A stretch of 39,012 nucleotides of DNA from a virus. The stretch's first letter is position 1. Each line of letters begins with the position of its first letter. The position numbers and the translations under genes are program-made. Shown in pieces: positions 2,138-39,012 of this stretch. A model generated the notes under the pieces. The model did not search any database. It saw only the letters and a program-made list of their open reading frames with translations, and was not told where the DNA came from. The stretch is from IMG/VR virus record IMGVR_UViG_3300046323_000773, positions 1 to 39,012 of that record. The stretch is one strand, 5' to 3'.

Positions 2138-2465
2138 AACTCATTGAAAATCAATGGTGTAACACTTGTAACACTTTGTAACAGATTCGTAACACTTTAT
2201 TTTTAAGTGTAACTGCCTGATAATCAAAGATGTAACACTTGTAACACATTTTTTTTGTGATAGAAAAAACTACCGTAAACAATTAAAACAATACAAGATA
2301 TACCTCTTTCCTTATTCTTATATATAATACACGTACATGCGATAAGGAAAAGTGTTACAAGTGTTACAGTGCTGAAAATCAATGAGTTATATCTGTTACA
2401 AAAGTGTTACAAAGCAATATCGAAGTGTTACAAGTGTTACAGTGCTGAAAATCAATGAGTTATAA
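2138..2465. repeat. Iteron-like array, candidate replication origin
   Basis: The gap 2135-2528 contains no gene. It holds 13 copies of GTAACAC or a one-base variant. Seven read forward (starting 2159, 2168, 2178, 2189, 2209, 2232, 2241) and six read in reverse as GTGTTAC or a close variant (starting 2352, 2361, 2393, 2404, 2425, 2434). Several are spaced 9-11 bases apart, about one helical turn. Between the arrays is an AT-rich segment with a 9-base inverted repeat (TTTCCTTAT 2307-2315, ATAAGGAAA 2342-2350). The left edge carries a palindrome, CATTGA-AAA-TCAATG (2142-2156). Opposed, phased iterons around an AT-rich centre next to a primase-helicase gene fit an origin; a regulatory binding array is the alternative. 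Confidence 0.6.
2350..2464. repeat. Two perfect 42-base direct repeats
   Basis: Positions 2350-2391 and 2423-2464 are identical over 42 bases. Each copy contains two GTGTTAC iterons followed by GTGCTGAAAATCAATGAG. A diverged inverted version lies at 2138-2176, where TAACTCATTG precedes two forward iterons. Perfect conservation in otherwise AT-rich non-coding DNA suggests recent duplication or selection on a binding unit. These copies form the right half of the candidate origin. Confidence 0.85.
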
Positions 2466-2882: not shown

Positions 2883-3287
2883 ATGTACATCGTTCAAGGA
2901 AGAATCACAGACATTTTACAAACAGAATCAGGTGTCGGCAAAAACAACAAAGACTGGCACAAGAGAGTATTCGTCATTGAAACGGACACACAGTACCCGG
3001 CACTCATTGCATTTACTGCATGGAACACGGTGATTGACCAATTAGACCACTTGACTATTGGCTCACAGGTAGAGGTAAGGTTTGATGTGTCCTCAAGGGA
3101 ATATCAAGGAAAATACTATTCGGACATCAAAGCCATAGCAGTCAAAGGACTTGAAGAACAGCCAAAGCAGTATGCAACAAACCAAGATGCACCGCCACCA
3201 AGCAAAACAGATGACACACCGGCTAAGTACGGTAAGCAGGAAAACCCGCAAGTTGCTGAAAATCAGGAGGAAGATTTACCATTCTAA
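2883..3287 (+). CDS. DUF3127-like single-stranded DNA-binding protein
   Basis: The 134-residue protein has an N-terminal OB-fold-like region of the DUF3127 type (about residues 1-105; MYIVQGRI, WHKRVFVIET, VRFDVSSREY, YYSDIKA). It is followed by a Pro/Gln/Asn-rich disordered linker and an acidic tail ending EEDLPF, almost the same as the partner-binding tip of bacterial SSB (DDDIPF). It probably coats single-stranded DNA during replication and recruits partners through the tail. Position between the VRR-NUC nuclease and the early genes fits. A promoter and probable operon break follow at 3304-3358. Confidence 0.8.
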   Translation: MYIVQGRITDILQTESGVGKNNKDWHKRVFVIETDTQYPALIAFTAWNTVIDQLDHLTIGSQVEVRFDVSSREYQGKYYSDIKAIAVKGLEEQPKQYATNQDAPPPSKTDDTPAKYGKQENPQVAENQEEDLPF

Positions 3288-3786: not shown

Positions 3787-3862
3787 GCTAACATAGCTCA
3801 ATTGGTAGAGCAGTTGCCTTGTAAGCAACAGGTTGCAGGTTCGATTCCTGCTGTTAGCTCCA
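3787..3862 (+). tRNA. tRNA-Thr (anticodon TGT)
   Basis: A complete 76-base cloverleaf is present. The acceptor stem GCTAACA (3787-3793) pairs with TGTTAGC (3852-3858); the discriminator T is at 3859 and the CCA is encoded (3860-3862). The D arm contains AGCTCAATTGGTAGAGC. The anticodon stem GTTGC/GCAAC encloses the loop CTTGTAA, giving anticodon TGT for threonine ACA codons. The T arm GCAGG-TTCGATT-CCTGC is canonical. No promoter is seen between the hairpin at 3747-3784 and the tRNA, so it is probably made by read-through. It may supplement a codon used heavily by the phage. All key tRNA features are intact. Confidence 0.96.
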
Positions 3863-3881: not shown

Positions 3882-4403
3882 ATGAACGCAACAATAGTAT
3901 TAAAATCTGCAATCCACCAAATGTATGACCAACTACAAGCATACGACTTGGATACATCTTTCAAAGAAGGTGTAATTGAAATAAAATTTGAAGGAAGCTC
4001 TAATCCTTATTGGGGATGCTCCATTGAGCAAAATTCAGATGGCTCATTCAGGCTAAAAAGTATGGCACTCAGCTACCCGATAGACCGCACTGTAACCAAT
4101 CAAAATTTGCTTGGTGTAATCAGCTTCCTATCTGGTCAAGAAATCACCAAGAAATCAAAAACGCACTCACATAGCAGCTATGCCGAGATAGATGATATTT
4201 CTGACTTGGTAGTTGAATACAATTTTACGGAAGGAAGCAAATCAACCTTCAAAGGAACTTGGGAATTACCAGCAGATGAGGATGAAGCTAACGAAGTTGA
4301 AATCATAGACATCAAATGGAGAGGCATATCAGTGATTAAAGCCTTTACAAGCAAAGAACTTGAAAGTATTGAAGGAAAACTATTTACATATCAAAACCAA
4401 TGA
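3882..4403 (+). CDS. Hypothetical phage protein
   Basis: This 173-residue protein is not recognised. It starts 19 bases after the tRNA and ends in an ATGA overlap with the downstream RecB-like nuclease, so the two are translationally coupled. The sequence is mixed alpha/beta: a helical N-terminus (VLKSAIHQMYDQLQAY), a beta-rich centre (VIEIKFEGSSNPYWGCSI, GSFRLKSM), a Ser/His-rich linker (KTHSHSSYAE) and an acidic stretch (PADEDEANEVE) before a closing beta-alpha segment. There are no membrane segments. Coupling to a nuclease and a recombination-factor-like gene suggests a DNA metabolism accessory role, but nothing in the sequence proves this. Confidence 0.6.
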   Translation: MNATIVLKSAIHQMYDQLQAYDLDTSFKEGVIEIKFEGSSNPYWGCSIEQNSDGSFRLKSMALSYPIDRTVTNQNLLGVISFLSGQEITKKSKTHSHSSYAEIDDISDLVVEYNFTEGSKSTFKGTWELPADEDEANEVEIIDIKWRGISVIKAFTSKELESIEGKLFTYQNQ

Positions 4404-5197
4404 AAATACATCACAACAAAGACATTGAAGTAATATCGTTCTTAGATGAACGGTATTACACTGAAGGAGAAGAAGTGTTCTACCCTGCTACGCAAACAAT
4501 TTTAGAAGTGTATCCGAAGGGTTATGCCTTTCAAAACTTCTTAAAACAAGTAGGAATGAATGTCGATGAAATCGTTAAAAAAGCATCCGAGCAAGGAGCT
4601 AAAATGCACGACACATTTCACAAAATAATGGATGGCTACACAATTGCTTGGATTGACGACCTTACAGGCAGACCTGCTTACACACTTGAAGAATGGCTAA
4701 TGGTTGCCAAGTTCTTTGAGTTTATTAGAGACTACCAACCCGAAGTAGTTGCGAAAAAACACAAAATAATTTCCGATAAAATTGGCGTAGGAGATACCAT
4801 TGATTTGGTGTGCGAAATATCGGGGCAACTTTGGCTGATTGATTACAAATCAGGCAACTACATCTACGAAACCGATTATATGCGACTCGCAGTATGTGTT
4901 GAACTTTGGAATGAAAATAACCAAAGAAAAATTGAGAAGGCTGGCATATTGCATCTCAAAGCCGAAACACGTGGGCAAGACAAAAAAGGAAAGAAAATAC
5001 AGGGTGAAGGCTGGCAACTCAAAGAACCGACTGAACCCCTTGATAAATACTTTGAAATTTTCGGACACGTCAAAGCGATTTGGCACAGCGTAAATCCAAA
5101 CCCAAAACCCAAAAGTATGCAGTACCCTGATAAATTCAGCCTGCAAGACCTAACCAACGAGGTAGCCGTTGGCAACACATTAAATGATTTCTTATGA
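4400..5197 (+). CDS. PD-(D/E)XK nuclease of the RecB/Cas4 type
   Basis: The 265-residue protein carries the core of RecB-family nucleases: an upstream helix with H70 (AKMHDTFHKI), then GDTIDLVCE with D135, then LIDYKSGN with D148 and K150, followed by a helix with the tyrosine-containing YMRLAV segment where the family's QhxxY helix is expected. Phage members act as exonucleases in recombination or DNA degradation. It overlaps its neighbours by 4 bases on both sides, and the next gene resembles recombination directionality factors, so the block 3882-6039 looks like a recombination module. No Fe-S cysteine set is evident, unlike many Cas4 proteins. Fold confidence is high; exact role is inferred. 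Confidence 0.82.
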   Translation: MKIHHNKDIEVISFLDERYYTEGEEVFYPATQTILEVYPKGYAFQNFLKQVGMNVDEIVKKASEQGAKMHDTFHKIMDGYTIAWIDDLTGRPAYTLEEWLMVAKFFEFIRDYQPEVVAKKHKIISDKIGVGDTIDLVCEISGQLWLIDYKSGNYIYETDYMRLAVCVELWNENNQRKIEKAGILHLKAETRGQDKKGKKIQGEGWQLKEPTEPLDKYFEIFGHVKAIWHSVNPNPKPKSMQYPDKFSLQDLTNEVAVGNTLNDFL

Positions 5198-6039
5198 GAA
5201 TAATTAGAGAAGCCCAACAATCCAAAGGCATTGGCATTGTTGGAAAAATCAAAGTAGGAGAAAAACACAAAGAAAAAGGCTACCCTACAAGCCTTGACTA
5301 TTTCCGAGTGGATAGTGAAAACAAGGAATATGAGAGATTATTCAAAGAAGCATACGGGGAAAAACCGACTTCTTTGCAAATCATATTTCTATCTGATAAC
5401 ATAGACCACGTTTGCAGTGAGTTCTTAGAACTTCGTGATAAATCGGGCAAAGTATATGCCCGCGGAGATGGTAAAAACTTTGAAGTTGTGGTAGGTGATT
5501 CATACCAAAAGTTTTCGGAAGCAGAGTTAATTGAAAAAACAGGCTCAGTTGAAAAACCCGGCTCAGTTGAAAAAGCGATGGAAAATATGGCTAAAAAGTG
5601 TGCTTCACCAAATGGTTGGAAATCGAGGCTTGTACTAAGATTTGTACTTCCCAAGATTAAAGGTCTTATTGGCGAATGGCAATTCAGCACCCATGCTGAA
5701 GCAAGTACCATCCCTCAAATCGTTGCCGTTTTTGATAGCATACTGCAACTTGCAGGCACTGTCCGAATGATTCCTTTTGACTTGAATGTCAAAAAAGTAA
5801 AATCAGATAAATCAGGCAGTAGCAGAAACTATCCTGTTGTGCAGTTGATACCCAATATTTCCACAGAAAATGCGCTCCTTTTGAAAGATTACGTAGAGCA
5901 GGGCATTGTTTCCCTTCGCACAGGGCTTTTGACTGACGATAAGTTTTTGAAGATTTCACAATCGCAGCAACTTTCATTACCTGAGCCTGAGATAAATGAT
6001 GGTTATACCACTTTTGAACAGTTTGAAGAAAATGAATAA
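5194..6039 (+). CDS. Gp3-like / recombination directionality factor-like protein (tentative)
   Basis: This 281-residue protein resembles the Gp3-like (RDF-like) family in the spacing of several blocks: GYPTSLDYFRV near residue 30, an AYGEKPTSLQI block near 55, a YARGDGKNF block near 90, W-K-S-LVLRFVLP near 146, and EWQFSTHAEASTI followed by a pF-L-V segment near 165-200. In serine-integrase phages such proteins switch integration to excision; related phage proteins may act in replication or recombination. Here the integrase is a tyrosine recombinase, so a canonical RDF role is uncertain. A tandem KTGSVEKPGSVEK linker (about residues 117-129) separates two domains. It overlaps the nuclease gene by 4 bases and the next small gene by 8. 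Confidence 0.55.
   Translation: MRIIREAQQSKGIGIVGKIKVGEKHKEKGYPTSLDYFRVDSENKEYERLFKEAYGEKPTSLQIIFLSDNIDHVCSEFLELRDKSGKVYARGDGKNFEVVVGDSYQKFSEAELIEKTGSVEKPGSVEKAMENMAKKCASPNGWKSRLVLRFVLPKIKGLIGEWQFSTHAEASTIPQIVAVFDSILQLAGTVRMIPFDLNVKKVKSDKSGSSRNYPVVQLIPNISTENALLLKDYVEQGIVSLRTGLLTDDKFLKISQSQQLSLPEPEINDGYTTFEQFEENE
5531..5566 (+). repeat. In-frame 18-base tandem repeat
   Basis: Two 18-base units, TTGAAAAAACAGGCTCAG (5531-5548) and TTGAAAAACCCGGCTCAG (5549-5566), plus a partial third (TTGAAAAAGCG) add six residues per unit (GSVEKx) to a flexible linker in the Gp3-like protein. Slippage would lengthen or shorten the linker without changing the frame. Confidence 0.8.
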
Positions 6040-6223
6040 CACGCCAACAACAGAAAAAATGGCTATCCAAAAGCGGATAGCTATTTTGGAACAAGTCAAA
6101 GAACGAGCATCCGAAAAAGGGGATTACAACTTCTTTAGTAAAATCAGTCAGGACATCAGAGAACTTCAAAAAGAACTACAAGAATATGAAACCACAAGAA
6201 AAGATGCTTCATCGGGTGATTGA
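6032..6223 (+). CDS. Small coiled-coil hypothetical protein
   Basis: This 63-residue protein is highly charged and mostly helical (RIAILEQVKERASEK, KISQDIRELQKELQEYE), so it probably forms a coiled coil. I chose the ATG at 6032, which overlaps the stop of the upstream gene by 8 bases; the longer alternative start at 5996 would lie well inside the upstream gene and adds an unlikely segment. It belongs to the chain of short overlapping early genes. No function is recognised. Confidence 0.6.
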   Translation: MNNTPTTEKMAIQKRIAILEQVKERASEKGDYNFFSKISQDIRELQKELQEYETTRKDASSGD

Positions 6224-12481: not shown

Positions 12482-12949
12482 ATGGCAGATATTCAATTGA
12501 CAGAGGCAGACGCAGAGGTAGAAGTAGAATTTCAAAGGCATAGGTCTGATAAAATAGAGTTCTACAACCGCATCAGAACCATACAAGAATGGCTTTTGAC
12601 AGGAGCTCCTGTGTCTGATATCTGCGTAAATATTTCAAGAAATTGGAATGTAGGGGATAGACAAGCATTTCGATACATCAAAGAAGCAAGAAGCCTTTTT
12701 ATCGAGCAAAACAAATCCGAAATTGAGGAAAAAAAGGCTTTTCATATTTCGGCACGTATGAAGTTGTATGAAATTTCCCTCAAAGAAAAAGATATTAAAA
12801 ACTCCCTTGCCGTACTCAAAGACATTGCAGAATTGGAAGGTTTGTATGTCCAAAAAGTCGAACATTCGGGGGCGATAGAAACGTCTGTTCAAATACTTTT
12901 ACCTGATAATTTCAGAAATGACAGGTTAGAATCAAAAGATGACTATTAA
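12482..12949 (+). CDS. Terminase small subunit (putative)
   Basis: The 155-residue protein has a helical N-terminal DNA-binding-type region (about 20-80: IEFYNRIRTIQEWLLTGAP, ISRNWNVGDRQAFRYIKEA) that resembles the HTH of small terminases. A long helix (about 85-130) and a flexible acidic tail follow. It overlaps the start of the large terminase gene by 11 bases, the classical terS-terL arrangement. It should recognise the packaging site on phage DNA and load the large subunit. Identification relies on length, predicted helices and position, since small terminases are poorly conserved. Confidence 0.72.
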   Translation: MADIQLTEADAEVEVEFQRHRSDKIEFYNRIRTIQEWLLTGAPVSDICVNISRNWNVGDRQAFRYIKEARSLFIEQNKSEIEEKKAFHISARMKLYEISLKEKDIKNSLAVLKDIAELEGLYVQKVEHSGAIETSVQILLPDNFRNDRLESKDDY

Positions 12950-14453
12950 ACCTCAAGCAGGATTCCAAGCCCTTGCCCTTTCTACTCCTGCCGATATTGC
13001 TTTTATTGGCGGAGCAGCAGGACCGGGCAAGTCTTTTTGTCTGTTACTTGAACCTACAAGACACATCAACAATCCAAAGTTTGGTGGAGTAATATTCAGA
13101 AGAACTACTCCCCAAATTATGAATGAAGGGGGGCTTTGGGATAAATCAGCTGAGATTTATGCCTACCTCAACGCATCTCCCAAACAAAGACCACTTGGAT
13201 GGACATTTAAAAGCGGAGCTAAAATTTCTTTTTCGCACCTTGAAAACGAAACCGATAAATTCAACTGGCAAGGTTCTGAAATCCCTTATATCGCTTTTGA
13301 TGAGATGACTCACTTCACGCGAGGGCAATTCTTCTATCTGCTTACTCGAAACCGTTCAACTTGCGGAGTTAAGCCTTATGTACGTGCATCAATGAACCCC
13401 GACCCTGAAAGTTGGGTTAGGGATTTGATTGACTGGTATATAGGAACTGATGGCTTTATTATTCCTGAGCGTTCAGGCAAACTACGTTTTTTTATGATTG
13501 ACAAAGGCGAGTTTGTTTGGGGAGATGACAGAAATGAAGTCGTAGAAAAATGTGAGCATCTATTTGACGCTTCAGAAAGTAAAGAAAAAAGAATCGAGAA
13601 AGTAAAGTCATTCTGTTTTATTGAAGGCAAATTAGACGACAATAAAATACTGCTTGAAAAAGACCCCGGCTACAAAGCAAACCTGTTGGCGCAAGATGAA
13701 GAAACTGTCAATAGGCTGTTCAAAGGTAATTGGAACATCACCCAAGATGTAATGTCTATTTCTCCACCCAATAAAATCAATGATATATTTTCAAATTTAG
13801 TCCCCAAAAAATCCCAAAAATATATCACCATTGACCACGCAAGATTTGGTCAAGATTTATGCGTTATAATCAGTTGGGAAGGAATGAGGGTCGATAGAAT
13901 AAATATTCTATCCATATCAGATACCAATACCATCCTAAAAGTAGTCAATGAAGAAAGAAACAGATTGGGTGTTGGTGTATCAAATATTATTTGCGACCAA
14001 GACGGTGTAGGTGTAATTGATGCCTTGGGCTGCAAAGTATTTCAAGGCAATGCAATGGCATTTAAAGATTTCGGAAACAAAACAAATACAAATTATAAAA
14101 ACCTCAAAACACAATGTGCCTACAAACTTTGTGAAGATTTCATCAATACAAATCAAATCAGTATTGATAGAAACTCTTTTTATGTTGCCATTTATAATAG
14201 TAATAATGAGTTCTTTCAGATGGTCAATTCATCTGAAGTAGAAATCAATAAAAAGATATATGATATTGAAAAATTGATTAAAAGGCAATTACGCACAATC
14301 AAGCGTAAAGATGCAGATGGGGAAGGTAAAAAACAAGTCATTTCCAAACAAGAGCAAAAGAATCTATTATCAGGAATGTCTCCTGATTTTGCAGACGCAT
14401 TATTAATGCGAATGACATTTGAATATTCAAGTACCGAGTACCCGACTTGGTAA
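12939..14453 (+). CDS. terL: Terminase large subunit
   Basis: The 504-residue protein is the packaging motor. The N-terminal ATPase has a Walker A, GGAAGPGKS (24-32), and a Walker B, YIAFDE (117-122, D121-E122), followed by a coupling-type segment. The C-terminal RNase H-like nuclease shows its acidic residues in TIDHARFGQD (about 297-306), ICDQDGVGV (about 350) and SPDFADALL (about 483-491). Length and motifs fit a complete phage TerL. It cuts concatemeric DNA and pumps it through the portal into the prohead. A minus-strand HTH gene ends 2 bases beyond the stop. Confidence 0.96.
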   Translation: MTIKPQAGFQALALSTPADIAFIGGAAGPGKSFCLLLEPTRHINNPKFGGVIFRRTTPQIMNEGGLWDKSAEIYAYLNASPKQRPLGWTFKSGAKISFSHLENETDKFNWQGSEIPYIAFDEMTHFTRGQFFYLLTRNRSTCGVKPYVRASMNPDPESWVRDLIDWYIGTDGFIIPERSGKLRFFMIDKGEFVWGDDRNEVVEKCEHLFDASESKEKRIEKVKSFCFIEGKLDDNKILLEKDPGYKANLLAQDEETVNRLFKGNWNITQDVMSISPPNKINDIFSNLVPKKSQKYITIDHARFGQDLCVIISWEGMRVDRINILSISDTNTILKVVNEERNRLGVGVSNIICDQDGVGVIDALGCKVFQGNAMAFKDFGNKTNTNYKNLKTQCAYKLCEDFINTNQISIDRNSFYVAIYNSNNEFFQMVNSSEVEINKKIYDIEKLIKRQLRTIKRKDADGEGKKQVISKQEQKNLLSGMSPDFADALLMRMTFEYSSTEYPTW

Positions 14454-14733: not shown

Positions 14734-14766
14734 TTGGCTTTTGTGTAACTATTTAACGTAAATTTG
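14734..14766 (+). promoter_or_regulatory. Promoter of the structural operon
   Basis: TAAATTTG (14759-14766) matches the Bacteroidota -7 consensus, with a TTG (14734-14736) 22 bases upstream as a slightly distant -33 element. The RNA would start near 14772, about 40 bases before the ATG at 14812. This also shows that a TTG at 14764, in frame with the gene, cannot be the start codon if the promoter is used. Confidence 0.55.
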
Positions 14767-14811
14767 ACTTTCAAATATAAGAGAAATACAGGAAATAAAT
14801 CATTAAAATAT

Positions 14812-15444
14812 ATGCCTACTGTTCGTCAGCTCAATATTTCTACTGCGCCATGCCCTGCACCTATTGCCCAGTCTCAAGCAGCGAATGCTTGTGCATTTAG
14901 AATCGGGTTAGGGACACTTGCAAGGGTTGTTTTCAAAAAACAAAGTGGTGCAAATCCTTTTACCACTACTACGATTTTGGCAGAAGCGACTTGGGATACA
15001 TTGCTTGCATTGGCTACTGACCCTGACAATGTTTTGCTCAGTAAAAAACTTTGGGAATCATCTGTTGTATCTGGCGAACCAAACACTGTTGAATCTGCAT
15101 CAGGGCAAAAACAATCTACTCATTATGCAAATGATGTGATTTCGCTCTCTTGGAAAGAACCGACAGCACAGGAAGAAAACGATTTGATGGTGTCTTTGAG
15201 GGACAACAGTTCCGACTCACTTGAATGTTTGCTTATCAATACCAAAGGTGAAATAATTGGCTCAAAAGGAACATCGCCAACCGAAGTAAAATGGTTTCCA
15301 ATCAGTTATGCAACCATCAAAGGAAGGTCTGCGGAAGGCGGTAGAGGCGGACTTGAAATGCTCATGGCGACTCTTGAATTTTATGAGGATGTTTTGAACA
15401 ACTGGGCGAAATTCAAACCTACTTTTGATATTTTGAAAAAATAG
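14812..15444 (+). CDS. Phage structural protein, possibly tail tube (tentative)
   Basis: This 210-residue protein opens the structural operon. The ATG at 14812 (MPTVRQLNIST) is preferred over an in-frame TTG at 14764, which overlaps the promoter. It is beta-rich with an aliphatic, Ser/Thr-rich composition. Its pattern (ATWDTLLALATDPD, a SGEPNTVESASGQ loop, NDVISLSWKEPTAQEENDL, ECLLINTKGEIIGS, a late SYATIKGRSAEGGRGG loop) is like tail-tube-type proteins of Bacteroidota phages. Its position directly after terL is unusual for a tube gene, so another virion role is possible. Function is an inference from composition and context. Confidence 0.45.
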   Translation: MPTVRQLNISTAPCPAPIAQSQAANACAFRIGLGTLARVVFKKQSGANPFTTTTILAEATWDTLLALATDPDNVLLSKKLWESSVVSGEPNTVESASGQKQSTHYANDVISLSWKEPTAQEENDLMVSLRDNSSDSLECLLINTKGEIIGSKGTSPTEVKWFPISYATIKGRSAEGGRGGLEMLMATLEFYEDVLNNWAKFKPTFDILKK

Positions 15445-23021: not shown

Positions 23022-23146
23022 AAAATAACAGGTCATTTTGGGGTGAATGGGGACAAACAATATCTGTGTTTTTTCTATTTTTTCTCAATTTGTTTATTCA
23101 CATAGTTGGTATTATCACAATCATTAAATGGTTTTTTAAAAAATGA
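23018..23146 (+). CDS. 42-residue membrane protein, candidate holin
   Basis: This short gene encodes MKNNRSFWGEWGQTIS followed by one long hydrophobic segment (VFFLFFLNLFIHIVGIITII) and a basic tail (KWFFKK). It overlaps the YkuD-like gene (ATGA at 23018-23021) and the next gene (ATGA at 23143-23146), so it is translationally coupled on both sides, strong support for a real gene. A tiny single-span protein between a lysis enzyme and a spanin-like pair is expected for a holin or antiholin-like protein; function is inferred. Confidence 0.72.
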   Translation: MKNNRSFWGEWGQTISVFFLFFLNLFIHIVGIITIIKWFFKK

Positions 23147-38101: not shown

Positions 38102-39012
38102 TTAGTTTGTTTCTCTCTCAATTATTTCCTTGAGTTTTTCAATGCGTTTTTCATCATTGAACTCAAATTTAGTCATTACGTCTAACATTCTACCAATCAA
38201 AAAAACGTCTTTGATGTTTCCTTTGCAAGTTTGAAGCAAAATTCTGTGTTCCTCAACTGCCCTTTGGCGTTGCTTGCTACTCATATCATAAGCAGATTTG
38301 CCGTAAACATTGTTGTTTTGGCACGTAGTACACATAAACATTTGTTGGCTGTAATAGTCCGATTCCAAACTTGGAAGTTGCATTTGCCCTTGTGATACCT
38401 TTTCCCAATCTTTTGGAGGCGATTGTCCCCAACCCCAATAAAAGCCCCGTTCTTTTACTTTCGCTTCCAACTCTTTCATATACTCATAAAACTTTGGAGA
38501 GCATTGTTTGATTTCAAGCAGTTCGTTTGGGTGTCCATACACGCCACAATTACACTCACCACTTCTGCCAATCGTTTTAGCTACGATAGACCTTTCAATG
38601 TTATTTTCATTGAAATAATGGTGTATATCACTTTTACACCAATCCGCAATCGGATTTACCCAAACATCATTTTTACGCATTTGGATATTTTGCACTGTTC
38701 CCATTCGCCTAATGCTTTCATCACGCCTTGCACCCGTCAATAAAGCCAAACGGTAACCTCTGCGTTTTTGTCTGATTTGGGCAATGCAACGGCTAAGCGA
38801 ATGGTCTTTGAGCATACGGTACATTACTGTATGTTGTGAGTGGTTCTGACCCGGAAAGCCAAAGCGTAAAACGTACTTCTCGTAGCTATCCTTATCCGTA
38901 GTTGTTCCAATAACCAAAGGTATATCCATTGCCTTACAAGTTTCAATTACAAAATCCTTTGTTTCGGGTATGCAAGTACCCGTATCGCAAAAAATTGCAT
39001 AGTCTATTTTAC
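38102..39012 (-). CDS. PAPS reductase-like phage protein (5' end outside window)
   Basis: The frame is open to the right edge, so the start and the PP-loop (S-G-G-x-D-S type) lie outside. The visible part begins IDYAIFCDTGTCIPE, the characteristic second motif of PAPS reductase/ATP pyrophosphatase-fold enzymes. It continues with LALLTGARRDESIRR and a W-V-N-P-I-x-D-W segment. Cysteines cluster in SGECNCGVYG and IKQCSP and again in CTTCQN, possibly a metal or Fe-S site. Phage proteins of this type are linked to sulfur or nucleotide chemistry, including DNA modification, or to host sulfur metabolism, but the substrate is unproven. It probably heads a minus-strand pair with the gene at 37613. Confidence 0.8.
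   Translation of the reverse strand, partial: KIDYAIFCDTGTCIPETKDFVIETCKAMDIPLVIGTTTDKDSYEKYVLRFGFPGQNHSQHTVMYRMLKDHSLSRCIAQIRQKRRGYRLALLTGARRDESIRRMGTVQNIQMRKNDVWVNPIADWCKSDIHHYFNENNIERSIVAKTIGRSGECNCGVYGHPNELLEIKQCSPKFYEYMKELEAKVKERGFYWGWGQSPPKDWEKVSQGQMQLPSLESDYYSQQMFMCTTCQNNNVYGKSAYDMSSKQRQRAVEEHRILLQTCKGNIKDVFLIGRMLDVMTKFEFNDEKRIEKLKEIIERETN

Follow-up and report, generated by a model that had tools for sequence, protein, structure and literature searches.

What does a dense set of short repeats do in the gap behind a phage primase-helicase gene, and which protein reads it? The locus lies in IMGVR_UViG_3300046323_000773, a 39-kb virus fragment without terminal repeats, and we call the whole analysed stretch of 39,012 nucleotides the window. 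An origin with a dedicated initiator, which an earlier note had suggested from the letters alone, is the best reading of the array and is supported by relatives with similar arrays next to VirE genes. We consider it likely that 2136-2462 is a replication origin bound by the neighbouring primase-helicase, in the manner of the rep-ori modules of PICI and SaPI elements.

Because the window encodes an integrase and a recombination-directionality-like gene together with terminase, portal, major head and tape-measure genes (PHROG), its carrier is a tailed, probably temperate phage, and the BT4734-type primase and its relatives point to a host within the Bacteroidota. The first gene past the putative origin is nuclease-like (2529-2864, + strand; PHROG Holliday junction resolvase/endonuclease) and is followed by a single-strand DNA-binding protein (DUF3127; 2883-3287, + strand; Pfam, PHROG). 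The phage also bears a tRNA-Thr (TGT) just past the replication module (3787-3862) and a PAPS-reductase-family gene (38102-38929, - strand). Among the matches listed for DNA similarity to known phages, the tRNA-Thr region alone matched. Cumulative GC skew in this fragmentary record tracks gene direction.

A mirror-image array of GTAACAC iterons

Exact GTAACAC occurs five times on the + strand (2159, 2168, 2189, 2232 and 2241; span 2159-2247) and five times on the - strand (2352, 2361, 2404, 2425 and 2434; span 2352-2440), ten copies in all; over 2000 first-order shuffles of the array region the average was 0.18 and the highest count 3. Counting the GTAAC core gives eight forward (2136-2241) and six reversed copies (2354-2436), which makes the earlier tally of seven and six heptamers nearly right, and the spacings of 9, 10 and 11 bases given for four left copies hold for those at 2159, 2168, 2178 and 2189. 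A feature absent from the earlier note is the symmetry: each of the ten exact copies has a mirror partner, true to the base, across an axis at 2299.5, and going outward the spacings are 9, 43, 21 and 9 on each side. Together the arms (2137-2251 and 2348-2462) make up an inverted repeat of 115 nt at 72%.

Each arm contains two 42-nt direct repeats spaced 73 bp apart, and every 42-nt unit combines an iteron pair 9 bp apart with a box resembling the IHF consensus. The forward units (2136-2177 with pair 2159/2168 and 2209-2250 with pair 2232/2241, + strand) are 83% alike, and the reversed units (2350-2391 with pair 2352/2361 and 2423-2464 with pair 2425/2434, - strand) are 100% identical. Between the units of each arm stand single iterons, GTAACAG 2178 and GTAACAC 2189 on the left (2178-2195, + strand) and CTGTTAC 2393 and GTGTTAC 2404 on the right (2393-2410, - strand). 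The helical phasing claimed for the array stands for the spacings of 21, 43 and 73 bp, at about two, four and seven turns, and fails for that of 9 bp, which is not a full turn. The IHF consensus WATCAANNNNTTR is matched exactly in the reversed units (2377-2389 and 2450-2462) and with one mismatch at the mirrored positions of the forward units (2137-2149 and 2210-2222), such that the consensus of an IHF-bound origin is present in the form of predicted sites.

The opposed arrays enclose an AT-rich centre (2248-2351; 25% GC versus 37% for the window), the proposed melting region, which holds the 9-base inverted repeat noticed before (TTTCCTTAT at 2307-2315, ATAAGGAAA at 2342-2350). This centre ranks at about the 98th percentile but is not the window's least stable stretch, which counts against the origin reading. 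The array starts at 2136, two bases past the stop codon of the VirE-type (VapE) primase-helicase gene beside which it had been placed (end 2134), and this is the position 3' of rep seen in PICI/SaPI-type rep-ori modules.

Searches for Rfam families and terminators found none, and the literature on GTAACAC iterons and on streptococcal phage origins held nothing usable. A classical iteron plasmid origin, defined by a DnaA box plus a Rep initiator, was rejected: no DnaA box was found near the array (the nearest DnaA-type box in the window is at 23094), and none of the ten window proteins scanned with Pfam has a Rep domain. Iteron plasmids (Rep, about 22-bp iterons, DnaA boxes) resemble the window in having direct repeats beside an AT-rich region, but differ in that the window's candidate initiator is not a WH1-WH2 Rep, that its heptamers stand in opposed arrays at intervals of about 9 bp, and that no DnaA box is near.

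The neighbouring primase-helicase as candidate initiator

The gene directly upstream (2-2134, + strand) encodes a BT4734-like_N, PriCT-2 and VapE primase-helicase (Pfam; PHROG 15962, DNA primase), the proposed initiator and self-loading helicase, whose N-terminus is cut off by the record end. Its best PDB sequence match is 7pds (phmmer E 4.6e-7), and the six best Foldseek matches of its AlphaFold model (seven sequences, mean pLDDT 71) are all 7pds, 'PriRep1 with dsDNA', with E down to 3e-14; both searches identify it as a homologue of the SaPI Rep/Pri-Rep self-loading helicases. The molecule in 7pds is labelled PriRep1 / 'similar to D. nodosus vapE', and we take it to be the SaPI5 primase-helicase. 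The C-terminal domain (1814-2131, + strand), a candidate iteron-binding domain with winged-helix-like secondary structure (AlphaFold pLDDT about 70-87 in its folded part), is modelled over the last 80 residues as helix-strand-helix-helix-strand. A Foldseek search with this domain returned mostly winged-helix regulators, none of them significant, which makes a winged-helix identity a lead.

These comparisons suggest that the array's binding protein is probably the adjacent primase-helicase, self-loading in the way of SaPI PriRep1, which would make a further Rep or DnaA-like gene unnecessary; the binder that the earlier note called not obvious is probably this PriRep1-type neighbour. In the mechanism that we propose, the primase-helicase would recognise the GTAACAC iterons, with its winged-helix-like C-terminal domain as the probable contact, and one oligomer would assemble per mirror-image array, with an IHF/HU-type host protein perhaps bending the arms at the AATCAANNNNTTA boxes. 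The AT-rich centre would then be opened by the helicase assemblies on either side of it, and the fused primase domain would prime synthesis, giving two diverging forks.

SaPI Rep binds iterons just 3' of its own gene via its C-terminal domain, and SCCmec Cch2, likewise via a C-terminal domain, binds and unwinds its own downstream repeats (PMC7581432), while in PICI origins an AT-rich region lies between two iteron sets immediately 3' of rep (PMC6092414). With the SaPI/PICI rep-ori modules (SaPIbov1, SaPI5 PriRep1, EcCICFT073) the window shares the self-loading Rep/Pri-Rep helicase fold, the origin location directly 3' of the gene and the AT-rich stretch between two iteron sets. It differs in that its primase part is BT4734-type, its iteron is GTAACAC, its arrays, which contain IHF-like boxes, mirror each other exactly, and it resides on a tailed phage that encodes terminase, portal, capsid and tape-measure proteins of its own. 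A satellite would lack such a structural gene set, and these genes led us to reject the window as a PICI satellite itself; because the sequence-level PICI features are found on a full phage, we describe the locus as a PICI-type rep-ori and not as a PICI. SCCmec cch/cch2 is similar in pairing a helicase with repeats just downstream of its own gene, the C-terminal mode of binding proposed here is that of Cch2, and DUF927 relatives with a Cch HTH surveyed below bear GTAACAC arrays; Cch2 differs in that only three AAGTG iterons are reported and in that its carrier is an integrated resistance element, not a phage.

Arrays behind related helicase genes

Scanning IMG/VR with one iteron pair gave 103 stretches, and about 50 of those fetched had at least five sites within 400 bp. 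Many of these motif-chosen arrays lie directly 3' of VapE helicases (loci L074, L023 and L070), of DUF927 helicases with a Cch HTH (L014, L017, L065 and L105) or of other primase-helicases (L052 and L085). Since this set was chosen by motif, we also ran the reverse test, in which helicase genes were sampled without regard to repeats. Among 26 loci from Bacteroidota for which the BT4734_N domain was the sole selection criterion, significant short-repeat arrays occurred in the 450 bp downstream at 9 of 26, upstream at 0 of 25 and inside the gene at 0 of 26; one of the nine (L210) proved to be a CRISPR array and was rejected as iterons, leaving 8 of 26. A further 76 loci, picked by DUF927, VapE or DUF3987 domains from Bacillota and Bacteroidota and sharing a few genes with the first set, had significant arrays in the 450 bp downstream at 35 versus inside the gene at 1 (Fisher p 4e-12). 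The recurrence of arrays near VirE genes in relatives, which had been put forward as a check, is borne out by both sets. About half of the 76 loci had no detectable array within 450 bp, which counts against the origin reading.

The rejected L210 array (4196-6185; repeat about 37 nt, period about 73) lies, in a genome from the Bacteroidota, directly 3' of paired genes for a BT4734-type primase and a helicase, and the primase is likely CRISPR-associated.

The iterons vary by locus (TTTGTCC, GTAGTAA, GGGAACA, GTGAACA and CCGGACA among them), their commonest spacing is 9 bp, and at 19 of 29 array loci the blocks, usually of opposite orientation, flank an AT-rich gap of 84-114 bp. This arrangement is shared by the isolated Flavobacterium phages snusmum6-1 (GGTTACCT, 8 copies) and FPSV-S1 (GGTTACAC, 9 copies) and by the streptococcal satellite Javan608 (AACTACA, 7 copies); in the other isolates with VapE genes, the majority of those examined, no array was detected within 450 bp. 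In Flavobacterium phage mymlan6-1 (4604-5510) a nuclease gene (record note Pfam PF10544) sits within the iteron array, which is unbroken in snusmum6-1, and this is possibly a mobile nuclease that has invaded an origin. Genomes were also scanned, without regard to genes, for 'pair + 75-105 bp + reverse'; of the 11 matches, three lie with DUF927-type helicases (L113, L118 and L119, the last with one gene between) and the remainder are chromosomal or unclear.

These surveys bear on whether the array could instead be an operator, through which a phage or host regulator controls transcription of the rightward genes or read-through from the left. The motif does exist without a helicase, both dispersed and linked to terminase genes, and TGTWACA comes close to a palindrome, a trait of repressor sites; however, the arrays are tied to helicase 3' ends and not to promoters, with none upstream of the 25 genes scored, there is no promoter excess (1 found versus 2.6 expected), and the design of two blocks about an AT-rich centre is seen again with unrelated iterons. 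We regard an operator as quite unlikely on this evidence.

Shared iterons, IHF boxes and copies away from helicases

A second issue is whether the iterons of such an origin are read by a common host protein or a second phage protein, with the helicase merely recruited. The TGTAACA iteron and the AATCAATGAGTTA box occur together with VapE in the window, with DUF927 in L113 (the iteron also in L017) and with DUF3987 in L246, and the C-terminal domains of these three helicase families look unrelated. The association of iteron similarity with similarity of the C-terminal domain is also weak (p 0.035, with some bias from the way in which the loci were found), which counts against the helicase-bound reading. 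Against this, iterons differ between loci and TGTAACA is rare in the samples not chosen by motif (L198 in the BT4734_N set, L328 in the 76-locus set), which argues for element-encoded recognition, and both SaPI Rep and Cch2 recognise iterons of their own (PMC7581432); we therefore hold a common reader to be unlikely. Its broader form, in which TGTAACA pairs and the AATCAATGAGTTA box make up one origin module common to unrelated helicase families across phyla, with an exchangeable helicase and a shared trans-acting factor (perhaps an IHF/HU-type host protein and a partner), seems doubtful to us. TGTAACA beside C-terminal domains that look unrelated may reflect shared ancestry, convergence or a common factor.

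The IHF-type boxes recur at the array loci. Over 28 of them, exact consensus sites number 11 downstream versus 1.3 expected, two of the 11 coming from L246, a locus found through the box, and 0 upstream. The composite TAACTCATTGA...TGTAACA was found in TGTAAC-rich clusters at 14 IMG/VR places, and the reversed control pattern at none; in four of those contigs it lies directly 3' of a 549-769-residue gene, and both of those scanned (L246 and L258) are DUF3987 helicases. The closest isolate, Nonlabens phage P12024S, has weak repeats only (AATGTAA five times) after 4657 and keeps a window-like GATCAATGAGTTA box.

GTAACAC clusters also adjoin terminase small-subunit genes and are dispersed in some Bacteroidota chromosomes, so the motif alone is no proof of an origin. 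At L051 (6432-6797), and at about 15 viral loci like it, GTAACA clusters of mixed orientation lie upstream of the terminase small-subunit gene with no helicase nearby. Such arrays near terminase genes of other phages would fit a packaging (pac/cos) or terminase-binding site, but in the window the terminase large subunit (12939-14453; PHROG) is 10 kb from the array, which abuts replication genes, and we consider packaging extremely improbable here. In the genome of Dysgonomonas sp. 511, GTAACACTTGTAACAC is scattered 26 times over the chromosome (reversed control 0), without a helicase link in the loci inspected, and looks like a dispersed intergenic repeat. A Chitinophagaceae MAG (G004, C79) holds long tandem runs of the 9-mer GTAACACTT at 12969-13092 and 14740-14827.

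For the helicase-bound origin that we favour, the wider setting is the family of mobile-element ATPases to which this helicase belongs. In the treatment of these families by Kazlauskas et al. 2018 (PMC5862659), VirE, DUF927 and DUF3987 ATPases are predicted to be mobile-element replication helicases and a C-terminal winged helix is suggested for origin recognition; that treatment gives no origins, whereas here about half of the genes that we sampled have arrays 3' of them. The layout, claimed until now for phage satellites only, is found here on a full phage and also 3' of many VapE, DUF927 and DUF3987 helicase genes from Bacteroidota and Bacillota. These arrays are directly testable candidate origins for the VirE/DUF927/DUF3987 ATPases, including those of phages already in culture.
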